Origin: Bacteroidaceae bacterium
GTDB lineage: Bacteria > Bacteroidota > Bacteroidia > Bacteroidales > Bacteroidaceae
Assembly (NCBI GenBank): GCA_024398475.1
Contig: JAKSJB010000004.1
Coordinates: 62,001 to 126,000, forward strand
Direction of reading: 5' to 3'
Length of the DNA: 64,000 bases
The position numbers and the translations under genes are program-made. Position 1 is the stretch's first letter. Each line of letters begins with the position of its first letter. A model generated the notes under the pieces. That model was not told the origin of the DNA. It searched no databases and was given only the letters and a program-made list of their open reading frames with translations. This document shows, in pieces, positions 56,638 through 63,749 of this stretch.

Positions 56638-57903
56638 CTACAGTCCGAATTCCTTTCTGATATCCTCCACTCTATCGAGCTTCTCCCAAGTAAAGAGTTC
56701 CACGTCTATGGTCTTTTCTCCACCAGACATGTAAGGAGAAGAGAAATGCTTGGTCACGGTCTGAGGAGTACGTCCCATGTGACCATAGGCTGCAGTTTCA
56801 CTGTATATTGGATTACGTAGTTTCAGGTCGCGCTCAATGGCATAAGGTCTCAGGTCGAACATCTTGCCAATCTTTCTAGCAATCTCGCCGTCGGTCATGT
56901 CTACGCGTGAATGTCCGTATGTATTTACATAAATACTTACAGGTTCAGCCACACCGATAGCATAACTGAGTTGCACGAGCATTTCGTCTGCCACACCGGC
57001 AGCCACCATGTTCTTTGCAATATGACGTGCTGCATAGGCAGCAGAACGGTCAACCTTAGATGGATCCTTACCCGAGAAGGCACCACCGCCATGAGCGCCC
57101 TTACCGCCATAGGTATCTACGATTATCTTGCGACCGGTAAGACCCGTATCTCCGTGAGGTCCGCCAATGACAAACTTACCAGTTGGGTTGATGAAGTATT
57201 TGATGTCAGGCGTAAACAGAGCCTTGATTCTCGGATCGTTGATTTCACTTATGACACGCGGTATCAGGATTTCCTTCACGTCACGACTTATCTGACGGAG
57301 CATAGCCTCGTCGTCATTGATGAATTCATCATGCTGGGTAGATACAACAATAGTATCAATCCTTACCGGACGGTCATCATCGTCGTATTCAATCGTCACC
57401 TGACTCTTTGAATCAGGACGCAGATAAGTCATTTGCTTATGTTCACGACGGATGTCAGCAAGTGTACGTAGGATGTGATGGCTGAGGTCGAGAGCAAGAG
57501 GCATGTAGTTTTCTGTCTCATTAGTTGCATAACCGAACATCATTCCCTGATCACCGGCACCCTGATCCTCAGGACGTTCGCGGTCAACACCCTGATTGAT
57601 GTCGGCACTCTGTTCATGTATTGAAGAAAGGAGTCCGCAGCCTTCAGCCTCAAACTTATATTCCGACTTTGTATATCCGATACGGCTGATTGTGTGACGT
57701 GCCACCTCCTGCAGGTCAGCATAAGCCTTTGATTTCACCTCACCGGCAATCACCACAAGACCGGTAGTCACTAGAGTTTCACAAGCGACCTTTGAATTTG
57801 GGTCAAAAGCCAGCAGTTGGTCAAGAACTGCATCACTGATTTGGTCAGCCACCTTGTCGGGGTGACCTTCACTCACCGATTCCGATGTAAACAAATATGC
57901 CAT
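56638..57903 (-). CDS. metK: S-adenosylmethionine synthetase
   Basis: Makes SAM from methionine and ATP. The conserved [20 protein letters not shown] (ATP and Mg site), the hexapeptide-type [13 protein letters not shown], the second signature [20 protein letters not shown] and [20 protein letters not shown] are all present. The 421-aa length is slightly above the E. coli protein, as usual in Bacteroidetes. Its own promoter leaves a short 5' UTR with no room for a SAM riboswitch. The two glycosyltransferase genes lie downstream. Confidence 0.99.
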
Positions 57904-58643: not shown

Positions 58644-59228
58644 CTAAATATACCCTGCTTTCCTAAGTTCTACGGCAGCAGTTTCAACTTCTTTCCACCA
58701 ATCCTCGCCGAACCGACGTATAAGAGGTTCCTTCAGGAACTTATACAGAGGAAGATTAAGCGTACAACCTTTTTCCACAGCACACTTGCAGATATCCCAT
58801 CTGTCGTAATTCACACCGACCATACCGCCCTGTATGTTTTTCAGTCTTACAGGATAGAGATGACATGATATGGGTTTCTGGAAACCAATGCGTCCCTGAC
58901 GGTATGCACGGTCGAGTATACAGTAGCACATACCGTTGTCGTCATGACCGGCATACACACAGTCACGTCCGTCCACGATACTAGTAACAAGTTCCCCTGA
59001 TGGGTCAGGATAGACCACCCCCTGTTCATTTATTACCTTCTGAGCCTTCGGTGATAGTTCGTTCCATACCTTTTCAGTAGCCTCTTCCAGGAGAGCCACC
59101 TCATCCGTTTCTACCGGAGCACCAGCATCACCCTCTTCACAGCAGCAGCCACGACATCGGTCGAGGTCACAGCAGAAAAATTCGGTAAAGATATCGAGTG
59201 AGACGAGAGTATTCTGTATTTCAAGCAT
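58644..59228 (-). CDS. DUF3109 family cysteine-rich protein
   Basis: A cytosolic protein of 194 aa with many cysteines arranged as in YkgJ-like metal or Fe-S proteins: FFCCDLDRCRGCCCEEGDAG near residues 16-35, then RDCVYAG, GMCYCILDRAYRQG, PISCHLYPVRL and WDICKCAVEKGC. DUF3109 proteins are common in Bacteroidetes; the function is unknown. The ATG at 59226-59228 is preferred and overlaps the DUF4435 stop by 8 bp (an upstream frame opens at 59249), so translation is coupled. It is the last gene of the four-gene operon. Confidence 0.9.
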   Translation of the reverse strand: MLEIQNTLVSLDIFTEFFCCDLDRCRGCCCEEGDAGAPVETDEVALLEEATEKVWNELSPKAQKVINEQGVVYPDPSGELVTSIVDGRDCVYAGHDDNGMCYCILDRAYRQGRIGFQKPISCHLYPVRLKNIQGGMVGVNYDRWDICKCAVEKGCTLNLPLYKFLKEPLIRRFGEDWWKEVETAAVELRKAGYI

Positions 59229-60231
59229 TTGTCTGCGTAATTCTGTCAATTATAGTTTGTAGTTTAGCCTTCAGCATTCCATACTGAGGCGATGACTTGT
59301 AGTTTGTGTTGCGGCGTAGCATCTGAACCACCTCTGCCTGACTGTGCTGATACGACGCCAGTTCATTGTCCATCTGCTGCTGTTGCGTAGCAAGTTGTTT
59401 TATTTCCTTTTCACGAGCCCTGCGCAGACTCTGACAGATAGGGTTCATTGCCACTAGAACCACATTGTCCATTATGTGATGTCCCTGAATATACATGTAG
59501 GTATTGTCGGGATTGACACCGAGAGCCGCCAGTTCCTCCTTCAGCGGCTGCAATTTACCCTTTGCTTCAGGAAAAGACTTCTGGAGCCATGCCACTTTGC
59601 GGTTCACACTCCTTCGCAATTCCTCGAATGCCGTTTCAGGCTTGTAGGTATTCAGGTTCATGACCTTACTTATGTTACAGAACGACGACATAGTGAACTG
59701 CTGCCCCAGTCCCTCACGGTTTATCCAGATAGCCCAGATGAAAAGGTCATACACAATCTGCGAGTATGTAGCAAGATACTGCTCAAAGTCGAAGATGCGG
59801 TGATCGTTCAGAGTCACCATCACGCACACCTCATGAAGACTCGGAGCATAACACTGGTAACTTTCAATGGCATAGGCAAAGGTATGAGCCACGAACTGGT
59901 TCTCCAGCATATTTCGGCTTGCAGGAGTCTTGCCCTGCAGCAGATAGTCGTAATCGGCATCCACACAGGCAATCATACTTGTACCGAGTCCTTCGCCCAG
60001 TCTGTTCATCATGGCAGTCTTCTTACCCCTTGCAAGCGAAGTACGTGAAGGCAGCACCACTTCGAAGCCCAGCGATTCGGTTTCGAATTCCGACAAAACG
60101 TCACGCCAAAAGAAGATGTCGTCGTAACTCTCCACGTACACCACCACCTTCTGCTTCCTCCACTTCGGGCGCATACTGTTCGCCGCCTCGAAATAGTCGG
60201 AATTCACGTTGTCTATTAACCTCTTGCCCAT
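59221..60231 (-). CDS. DUF4435 (TOPRIM-like) protein, AriB-like
   Basis: A 336-aa protein with a TOPRIM-like DUF4435 fold: VVVYVESYDDIFFWRDVL (acidic Glu34) and IACVDADYDYLL (Asp91, Asp93, Asp95) form the expected acidic metal site, followed by HTFAYAIESYQCY. A second, helical region (about 255-330) includes a charged coiled coil (EKEIKQLATQQQQMDNELAS). In PARIS anti-phage systems the DUF4435 protein AriB is the toxic nuclease released by the ATPase AriA. Here the gene lies 21 bp after an ATPase gene, in the same order. Whether it acts in defence or housekeeping is not shown by sequence. Confidence 0.88.
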   Translation of the reverse strand: MGKRLIDNVNSDYFEAANSMRPKWRKQKVVVYVESYDDIFFWRDVLSEFETESLGFEVVLPSRTSLARGKKTAMMNRLGEGLGTSMIACVDADYDYLLQGKTPASRNMLENQFVAHTFAYAIESYQCYAPSLHEVCVMVTLNDHRIFDFEQYLATYSQIVYDLFIWAIWINREGLGQQFTMSSFCNISKVMNLNTYKPETAFEELRRSVNRKVAWLQKSFPEAKGKLQPLKEELAALGVNPDNTYMYIQGHHIMDNVVLVAMNPICQSLRRAREKEIKQLATQQQQMDNELASYQHSQAEVVQMLRRNTNYKSSPQYGMLKAKLQTIIDRITQTNA

Positions 60232-60252
60232 AATGGATTTGGATTGACTTTT

Positions 60253-61077
60253 CTATATGGTCACATCCTCCACCTCAGTCACGATGTCGAGCCATCCATT
60301 CATGATGAGCGCAGGTGAATGAGTAGAAAGAATGACCTGAGCGTTAGGATTCAGTTCACGAATAAGTCCGATAAGTTGTTTCTGCCATTCAATGTGCAGA
60401 CTTATCTCAGGTTCGTCCATGAGCAAAGCATAGTGCTCACCGTTCTCCACCAGTACCGTCATCATGATTACGAGCATCTGCTTCTCACCCGACGACAACT
60501 GATAAGGAGTCAGTACCTCACCGTTTTGAATGAACTGGATTTCGTTGCTGGTACGGTCGATTGACTTGTGAGTATCACGGAACAGTTCGTCCATTATGTC
60601 CTGAAAACGGAGTTTGGCAGTTGATACCTGAGCCGCAAGTTTCTGGTCTTCAGGATTGCCGCTCGTGAGCAATGCAATCATACGGTTACCGATGTTCACC
60701 TGATAGTCAAGATAACGTTTCTGCAATTTATACACCTGCCAGTCAAGTTCTGTCTGTACACGTGAATCGGCAAGTTTCTCCAACAGATTGCTGTTGAGCA
60801 AAGGACGGTCGAACGAACGTATCACGTCAAAACGTATACTGGTAGCATCCTCGGGAAAGAGTTTTATCGTAACGCCCTCAGCCACCTCACCTGCAGGAAT
60901 CTCACCACCTTCCATAAGTCGCAGTCCCTTGGCAGAATGGTTGATTATGGTACTCTTACCCACACCGTTGATACCACTCAGGATGTTCACGTCCCTGTTG
61001 AGTTGCCAGCGCACATGCTTACCGCCCTTCCACAAGGCATTGATTTCAATACTCTGAATGTATTCGGCCTGTTTCAT
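60253..61077 (-). CDS. AAA/ABC-type ATPase (AriA/OLD-like), 274 aa
   Basis: A compact P-loop ATPase. From the ATG at 61075-61077 the motifs are Walker A GINGVGKST (35-43), ABC-type signature LSSGEKQML (194-202), Walker B ALLMDEPE (217-224) and the H-loop STHSPA (251-256). The insert between them (about 60-190) is helical. A TTG at 61084 is a possible but less likely start. It begins 5 bp after the TM2 stop and is followed 21 bp later by DUF4435. AriA proteins are longer, so this is a minimal relative; it is also similar to the ATPase halves of OLD and Abi systems. Confidence 0.9.
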   Translation of the reverse strand: MKQAEYIQSIEINALWKGGKHVRWQLNRDVNILSGINGVGKSTIINHSAKGLRLMEGGEIPAGEVAEGVTIKLFPEDATSIRFDVIRSFDRPLLNSNLLEKLADSRVQTELDWQVYKLQKRYLDYQVNIGNRMIALLTSGNPEDQKLAAQVSTAKLRFQDIMDELFRDTHKSIDRTSNEIQFIQNGEVLTPYQLSSGEKQMLVIMMTVLVENGEHYALLMDEPEISLHIEWQKQLIGLIRELNPNAQVILSTHSPALIMNGWLDIVTEVEDVTI

Positions 61078-61082
61078 AATAT

Positions 61083-61427
61083 TCAAATAAACTTCATCAA
61101 TTTATCGAGATTCTTCTGACGGGTAGCATCCATGATGAGGAAGAGGTCCACAAGCCACCATATCAAGCCCAAGCCGCAGCAACATGTAGTCAGCAGTTTG
61201 CCGATACCAAGACCTACGTCACCGATAATAAAACGGTCAATGCCGAGTTCACCGAAAAACACCGACAGTACGATGTTCAATACCGGACTAATATAACTAA
61301 GACTCATAATAGCCAATTCCGAGTCGGGGTCTGCCTTGAGCAGCCTTTCACGAATCATTGGGATTGCCTCAGCAGGGAAATATTCACCCTTAGCGGCAAT
61401 AAACATGTTAACTTTTTCTATATCCAT
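61083..61427 (-). CDS. TM2-domain membrane protein, 114 aa
   Basis: The N-terminal 45 residues are soluble and helical (EAIPMIRERLLKADPDSELA). A TM2 domain follows (about 45-112): two hydrophobic helices with the conserved junction FFGELGIDRFIIGDVGLGIG and the Cys-rich LLTTCCCGLGLIWWLVDLF, then LIMDATR. TM2 proteins are small inner-membrane proteins of unknown role. It is the first gene of the TM2-ATPase-DUF4435-DUF3109 operon and has its own full promoter. Confidence 0.92.
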   Translation of the reverse strand: MDIEKVNMFIAAKGEYFPAEAIPMIRERLLKADPDSELAIMSLSYISPVLNIVLSVFFGELGIDRFIIGDVGLGIGKLLTTCCCGLGLIWWLVDLFLIMDATRQKNLDKLMKFI

Positions 61428-61964: not shown

Positions 61965-63749
61965 ATGATATCAATAGAACAATTATACGTTGAATTCAGC
62001 GCAAAGCCTTTGTTCAGGGACGTGAGTTTCGTAGTAAACCCACGCGACAGAATTGCACTGGTGGGAAAGAACGGAGCCGGAAAATCGACTCTGCTGAAAA
62101 TCATTGCCGGACTGCAGGAACCTACCGGGGGTGTAGTGGCACGGCAGAAGGACGTAACCATAGGTTACCTGCCCCAGGTGATGCTCACAATAGATGAGCG
62201 GACTGTGGAGGAAGAGGCTATGCTTGCCTTCGAGGGATCAGATACTGAAGAATGGAACCGCAGGGCGGAACTCGACAAGACACTCATCGGACTCGGTTTC
62301 AGCCGGGAGGACTTCACACGTCCCACGAGTGAGTTTTCGGGTGGATGGCGCATGCGAATTGAGTTGGCAAAGATTCTGCTGCGAAAACCCGACCTTCTTC
62401 TGCTCGACGAGCCTACCAACCACCTCGACATCGGTTCGATTCAGTGGTTGGAATCGTTCATTCAGAATTCCGCCAAGGCTGTGCTATTGGTAAGTCATGA
62501 CCGTGCATTCATCAACAACATCACGAACCGCACGATTGAGATTACCTGCGGACGTATCAACGACTACAAGGTGGCTTATGACCAGTACGTAGTGCTGCGC
62601 GACGAACGCCGTGAACAACAGTTGCGTGCCTATGAGAACCAGCAGAAAGAGATTGCGGAGATAAAGGACTTCATCGAGAAATTCAGATATAAACCAACCA
62701 AGTCAAACCAGGTGCAGAGCCGCATCAAGCAACTCGAGAAAATCATACCGATTGAGATTGACGACGTGGATACAAGTATGCTTCGCTTGAAGTTTCCTCC
62801 ATGTCAGCGAAGCGGCGACTTCCCAATAATCTGCGACTGCGTAGGTAAAACTTATGGAAACCATAACGTATTTCACGACGTAAGCCTCAGCATCAGACGC
62901 GGTGAGAAGGTGGCATTCATGGGCAACAACGGTGAGGGTAAATCCACACTTGTGAAGTGTATCATGAATGAGATTCCGTTCGACGGAATGCTGAAAATTG
63001 CTCAGAACGTACAGATTGGCTATTTCGCACAGAATCAGGCCCAATTGCTCGACGGAGAAATCACCGTATTCGACACCATCGACAGGGTGGCTACGGGTGA
63101 CATTAGGTTGAAGATACGCGATCTGCTCGGTGCGTTCATGTTCGGCGGAGAAGCATCGGACAAGTTCGTAAAAGTACTCAGCGGTGGAGAAAGAAGCCGA
63201 CTTGCCATGATTCAGTTGCTGCTGCAACCTGTGAACCTGCTCATTCTTGACGAGCCTACCAACCACCTCGACATGCAGTCGAAGGATGTGCTGAAAAATG
63301 CCATCAAGAATTTCGACGGTACTGCTATCATCGTGAGCCACGACCGTGATTTTCTCAATGGGCTTGTGGACAAGGTGTTCGTGTTCAAGGACCAGGGAGT
63401 GAGAGAAGAAAATCCGTTCCTGCCCGCCATCAAGGACATAAACCTGCAGAACAAGCCTGCGAGCCAACGAGTAAATGAGGCAACAAAACAACATGCCAAC
63501 GAATCGGCAGGACAGCAGGACGGCGCACTCAGTTATGCTCAGCAAAAGGAACTGGCACGCCAAAAGGCTAAGGCAGAGAAGGCCCTGAAGGCCTGTGAAG
63601 AGAAGATAGCGAAACTGGAGACAGAAATAGCGGAAGTGGAAAGTACACTCGCCACGAAGAACGACATGCAACTCGTGGAACGCTACACACAGTTGAAGGA
63701 ACAACTTGACAAGGCCATGGAGGAGTGGATGGAATATTCCGAAGCATAA
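61965..63749 (+). CDS. ABC-F family ATP-binding protein (duplicated ABC), 594 aa
   Basis: A soluble ABC-F ATPase that acts on ribosomes rather than transporting. The first ABC domain has Walker A GKNGAGKST (about 36-44), signature FSGGWRMR and Walker B LLLLDEPTNHLD; the inter-domain linker of about 75 residues is helical with KPTKSNQVQSRIKQLEKI. The second has GNNGEGKST, LSGGERSRLAM and LLILDEPTNHLD. A C-terminal coiled coil (about 530-590, AEKALKACEEKIAKLETEIA) resembles the Uup/YdiF type. The subgroup, and any role in antibiotic protection, cannot be settled by eye; a housekeeping member is likelier. Confidence 0.95.
   Translation: MISIEQLYVEFSAKPLFRDVSFVVNPRDRIALVGKNGAGKSTLLKIIAGLQEPTGGVVARQKDVTIGYLPQVMLTIDERTVEEEAMLAFEGSDTEEWNRRAELDKTLIGLGFSREDFTRPTSEFSGGWRMRIELAKILLRKPDLLLLDEPTNHLDIGSIQWLESFIQNSAKAVLLVSHDRAFINNITNRTIEITCGRINDYKVAYDQYVVLRDERREQQLRAYENQQKEIAEIKDFIEKFRYKPTKSNQVQSRIKQLEKIIPIEIDDVDTSMLRLKFPPCQRSGDFPIICDCVGKTYGNHNVFHDVSLSIRRGEKVAFMGNNGEGKSTLVKCIMNEIPFDGMLKIAQNVQIGYFAQNQAQLLDGEITVFDTIDRVATGDIRLKIRDLLGAFMFGGEASDKFVKVLSGGERSRLAMIQLLLQPVNLLILDEPTNHLDMQSKDVLKNAIKNFDGTAIIVSHDRDFLNGLVDKVFVFKDQGVREENPFLPAIKDINLQNKPASQRVNEATKQHANESAGQQDGALSYAQQKELARQKAKAEKALKACEEKIAKLETEIAEVESTLATKNDMQLVERYTQLKEQLDKAMEEWMEYSEA

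Follow-up and report, generated by a model that had tools for sequence, protein, structure and literature searches.

A core, vertically inherited AriA-AriB-like gene pair in Bacteroidaceae

Does an ABC ATPase gene followed closely by a DUF4435 gene in a Bacteroidaceae chromosome represent a phage defence system, or does it have a resident cellular role? The question is raised by a strip of four genes in the window, i.e., the whole 64,000-nucleotide stretch of DNA that was analysed. An adjacent ABC ATPase gene followed by a DUF4435 TOPRIM gene is likewise found in the PARIS system of E. coli B185 (PDB 8ux9, 8v45-8v49), and ariAB is present in 5.2% of genomes (Rousset 2022). In the window the genes run in the order TM2, ATPase, DUF4435, DUF3109 (Table 1), and the ORF coordinates bear out the order and the 21 bp ATPase-DUF4435 gap of the preliminary description. 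The TM2 gene ends 5 bases before the ATPase start, and 8 bases at the start of the DUF3109 gene are shared with the end of the DUF4435 gene; thus translational coupling of these two genes is plausible. The genes that flank the strip are ordinary.

Table 1. Positions of the four-gene strip and its neighbours in the window
Feature	Position	Strand	Length and basis
MetK-like gene, neighbour of the strip	56638-57903		read by eye
DUF3109 Cys-rich protein	58644-59228	minus	194 aa from ATG; Pfam DUF3109 2.3e-72
AriB-like DUF4435 TOPRIM protein, putative nuclease	59221-60231	minus	336 aa; Pfam DUF4435 1.5e-46
AriA-like ABC ATPase, short subtype	60253-61077	minus	274 aa from ATG; AAA_21 5e-17
TM2-domain membrane protein	61083-61427	minus	114 aa; Pfam TM2 2.4e-12
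ABC-F-like gene, divergent neighbour of the strip	61965-63749		

The ATPase matches the PADLOC AriA model PDLC04164 (253 positions) over residues 2-273 at 1.2e-55, and scores 63.5 bits with Pfam AAA_21 and 55.7 bits with AAA_15. When a profile of 87 relatives was compared with the PDB, the best match was AriA of the solved PARIS complex (1.2e-30). The AF2 model of the ATPase (pLDDT 83.5) aligned best with the same protein in VIA-align (8ux9_B, Z 16.0, rmsd 3.8, 241 residues). The Walker A, LSSGEK signature, DEP Walker B and H-loop, which were described at the outset as complete, are invariant or nearly so in the 87 relatives.

The ATPase had also been described as oddly small. However most of its relatives within Bacteroidaceae have about 270-283 aa, and the size is thus normal for a short AriA subtype, in keeping with the 253-position PADLOC model. 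The E. coli B185 AriA is longer, with 464 aa. In the profile alignment, a stretch of about 50 aa in the window ATPase faces about 220 aa of its E. coli counterpart; the window ATPase is thus without the approximately 170 aa that E. coli AriA has between its two ATPase halves.

The DUF4435 protein (Pfam score 159.5 bits) matches the PADLOC AriB model PDLC02983 at 7.7e-56, with most of its length covered. Its AF2 model (pLDDT 88.8) aligned best with AriB 8ux9_A (Z 11.2, rmsd 5.2, 242 residues) and gave Z 10.5 with AriB 8v46_D, and the next unrelated structures fall to Z values of about 5. Thus both single-protein models match their PARIS counterparts, and the suspected TOPRIM relationship of the DUF4435 protein held up in the structural comparison. 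At the sequence level the AriB of E. coli B185 is too divergent from the window protein to be detected: PDB sequence searches from DUF4435 did not find AriB, even with the 87-row profile or with plasmid AriB queries, and it was recovered in the PDB by fold search only.

Residues E34, D91, D93 and E123 of the DUF4435 protein are invariant in the 87 relatives. Glu34, Asp91 and Asp93, which were first noted as intact, are among these; Asp95, which was included in the same set and is present in the window, is an Arg in one related family. The window lysines K70 and K71 may be the counterparts of the anticodon lysines K60/K64 of E. coli AriB, although this pairing is a guess. Plasmid AriB proteins of Enterobacteria carry the same catalytic motifs. 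Judged by profile matches, modeled folds and conserved catalytic residues, which are of the same classes as in PARIS, the assignment of the ATPase and the DUF4435 protein as true AriA and AriB relatives is firm.

The nucleases of the OLD family also combine an ATPase with a TOPRIM domain. In these the two are fused, whereas the window has two separate ORFs, and the DUF4435 model shows only a weak match to the OLD TOPRIM region (Z about 4.9), far poorer than that to AriB. Among the PADLOC short AriA/AriB models (PDLC04164 with PDLC02983 and PDLC04165), the ATPase match is near full-length and the DUF4435 match covers most of the protein. It should be noted that these models imply defence by name only, and that they carry no record of family-wide fixation or of genomes with AriB alone.

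DUF4435 relatives are found in 285 of 301 Bacteroidaceae genomes, nearly always in single copy, and in 162 of the 169 that are of high quality; 28 of 30 genera are represented, and the window's genus has the gene in 17/17 genomes. In an order-wide sample the count is just 24/295. AriA is adjacent to, upstream of and co-directional with AriB in 120/120 Bacteroidaceae loci (a number that includes a few genomes twice), with a median gap of 21 bases. A random association of the two genes is thus not seen. In a third family, f106, the pair is mostly genus-consistent and AriA is adjacent in 15/15 loci. The location among housekeeping genes rather than in a mobile island, which had been remarked on, is a case of chromosomal fixation stronger than first guessed.

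The descent of the pair follows that of the genomes. Distances for rpoB correlate with those for AriB (r 0.74) and AriA (r 0.60; Mantel p 0.001), and in 43 genomes the pair tree and the rpoB tree are nearly identical. The Bacteroidaceae clade has a support of 99, with the exception of one genus. The AriA-AriB pair is core and vertically inherited in Bacteroidaceae. In genus g190 of this family (L188, G300) the AriAB is distant and non-orthologous, and its place is with a second copy that belongs to another family. In one genome (G304; L187, L189), DUF4435 is split into two matches beside an intact AriA, which suggests a frameshift or an assembly error.

AriAB homologues are also present on small plasmids, some of them ColE1-like, and on proviral contigs, which marks the wider family as mobile and defence-like. 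The plasmid pairs (pRK2, pK708696-4 and a Psychrobacter plasmid) are adjacent as well, and their AriB shares the E, D, DxD, E and GH motifs. They differ from the window pair in being mobile, in having an AriB that is about 20-23% identical and an AriA of 325-336 aa, and in lying outside the Bacteroidales chromosomal clade. Such relatives raise the possibility that the window pair is a recently gained mobile defence cassette that came to lie among housekeeping genes by chance. Against this, the pair tree tracks rpoB across the family, the Bacteroidaceae clade is well supported apart from one genus, and a search of 2.9 million viral contigs and a phage collection gave no close relative. Recent mobile acquisition is refuted for the window locus by the congruence of the gene trees with rpoB, and we accord it hardly any probability.

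The close spacing of the strip and the gene overlap at its end are compatible with a membrane-linked operon of four genes, in which TM2 and DUF3109 would act together with the ATPase and DUF4435, and in the window's genus most loci do have these two genes alongside the pair. However they adjoin it only in that genus, and not in all of its members, and neither is found beside the pair in any of the 73 longer loci outside it. The neighbours of the pair vary between clades: TrkA and Dxs-like genes in some, EamA, MeaB and MscS-like genes in others, and a divergent EamA gene adjoining AriA is common to several genera. The survey of flanking genes across the Bacteroidaceae loci revealed no conserved partner beyond AriA. 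TM2 and DUF3109 are thus incidental bystanders, the membrane link suggested earlier fails with them, and the four-gene operon as a general mechanism is largely refuted and very improbable.

Both genes of the pair are under strong purifying selection, with median dN/dS values of 0.055 for AriA and 0.082 for AriB. AriA is the slower of the two in 29 of 31 genome pairs, 3 of which repeat the same genomes. A slow putative sensor and a faster effector are the opposite of what a sensor arms race predicts.

The pair has been lost in some lineages and is therefore not essential. In genus g2, four genomes that are complete or nearly so are without it; they retain meaB, and the EamA-AriA-AriB-MscS block that follows meaB is gone. 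One of these was checked gene by gene, and the site holds housekeeping genes, which we take to be pfkA, ispH and cmk, and no other defence genes. Thus the site downstream of meaB in that genome is not a defence hotspot.

A different kind of loss is seen in the GC-rich sister family f113, which is probably Rikenellaceae. AriB is present in 111 of its 120 genomes and in 71 of the 72 of high quality. Among 38 good genomes (L274-L311) AriA is found in 7, in 4 of them adjacent to AriB and in 3 elsewhere in the genome (G598, G604, G617). A search at E 1e-10 found no AriA in the remaining 31, single-contig genomes included; one of these (G612), which is counted as lacking AriA, has one weak ATPase match. 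Pairing is constant in the Bacteroidaceae loci, in contrast to these 31 genomes where AriB stands alone. The 31 AriB copies form one clade on the AriB tree (98/98), for which a single loss suffices, and AriA was apparently lost once. Residues E34, D38, D91, D93, E123, G250 and H251 are kept in all 31 copies, and dN/dS is 0.04-0.23 in seven close pairs. The long and constrained survival of AriB after the loss of AriA speaks for a separate role of AriB. A short gene often lies just ahead of these AriB genes in divergent orientation (L275, L283, L287, L298 and others); by eye it looks like a SUI1/YciH translation initiation factor gene.

We favour a resident cellular function over accessory immunity, at a probability of roughly 0.58. 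The pair would be an orthologous, vertically inherited AriA-AriB module that has been core since the Bacteroidaceae ancestor, with AriB as an RNA nuclease and AriA as its regulator. This rests on the fixation of the pair, its vertical descent, the slow evolution of the putative sensor and the survival of AriB in f113. AriB may act as a metal-dependent TOPRIM endoribonuclease on structured RNA, for which tRNA is the best guess as substrate, and AriA may be an ABC-ATPase that holds or times AriB. We infer for the pair nuclease activity, an RNA substrate, control by AriA and a cellular rather than an anti-phage job.

However a fixed innate immunity should also be considered as the main alternative. 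Here a real PARIS would have been kept as a core system, in which AriA senses a phage product and releases AriB, tRNA is cut and growth arrest follows. Gut Bacteroidales are under heavy phage pressure. Both catalytic centres are intact, and the modeled folds match those of the two proteins in the solved PARIS complex. In PARIS, AriA sequesters AriB until a phage trigger such as Ocr leads to its release. The AriB of E. coli cuts host tRNA in the anticodon stem (PMC12409363). The pair also falls under the published detection rule, in which an AAA_15 or AAA_21 protein lies next to a DUF4435 protein (>32, 27 and 27 bits; Rousset 2022), and it displays the PARIS features of an AriA fold with ATPase motifs and an AriB fold with the TOPRIM Glu and DxD. 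By this sequence definition it may be classed as a new, clade-fixed variant of PARIS type. A DefenseFinder run has PARIS among the systems of B. thetaiotaomicron jmh43 (PMC12135933), and this call may concern the core pair.

On the other side, the E. coli B185 system is an accessory phage defence, whereas the window pair, as known from sequence and models, is core and vertical. The patchy and mobile distribution that is typical of accessory defence genes is not seen in a pair that is near-universal, rpoB-congruent and slowly evolving. Nor do the greater conservation of the sensor than of the effector and the lack of the 170-aa section of E. coli AriA fit well with fixed immunity. The f113 genomes bear on the question in two ways. 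Deleting either gene is non-toxic in E. coli (PMC9122126). An AriB on its own is therefore not necessarily a danger to the cell, and the fact that it survives does not by itself prove a new role. Both genes are required for defence in the same system (PMC9122126), and AriB alone, as PARIS, would thus be of no use; PARIS as described could not work where AriA has been lost. We regard fixed immunity as possible, with a rather low probability.

The resident function is to be weighed against the mobile and defence-like nature of the wider family, the PARIS label given by the published rule and by a defence caller, the lineages without the pair and the non-orthologous genes of g190. If it is correct, the pair was probably domesticated from a PARIS type, and an abortive-infection nuclease would then have become a household enzyme. 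If the pair serves immunity, an unusual growth-arrest system has been fixed across a whole bacterial family. More tentatively, and at somewhat less than even odds, AriB-type DUF4435 proteins could be resident nucleases of RNA processing or translation control in Bacteroidales, with AriA as an optional regulator; on this reading the ancestor of the families concerned would have domesticated a PARIS system, or PARIS would itself derive from such a cellular pair. Because callers and published rules label such pairs as PARIS, a core cellular pair may be entering the PARIS counts of immunity surveys in Bacteroides and Prevotella. The literature that was searched holds no report of family-wide AriAB fixation or of AriB without AriA, and no link of DUF4435 to a Bacteroides phenotype. 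In the rumen defence surveys consulted, PARIS is not named in the main text.

AriAB-like pairs lie on K. pneumoniae pK708696-4, on the Psychrobacter plasmid and on E. coli W pRK2 (L205, L207, L208), and the AriB of pRK2 is annotated as "hypothetical protein" only. The DUF4435 gene of the core pair is also present in two records that are deposited as plasmids, one from B. finegoldii (L206, NZ_OY725943.1) and one from P. massiliensis (OY726067.1). In NZ_OY725943.1 this gene is surrounded by meaB, DUF1573 and alpha-2-macroglobulin genes, and the record looks like a chromosomal fragment.
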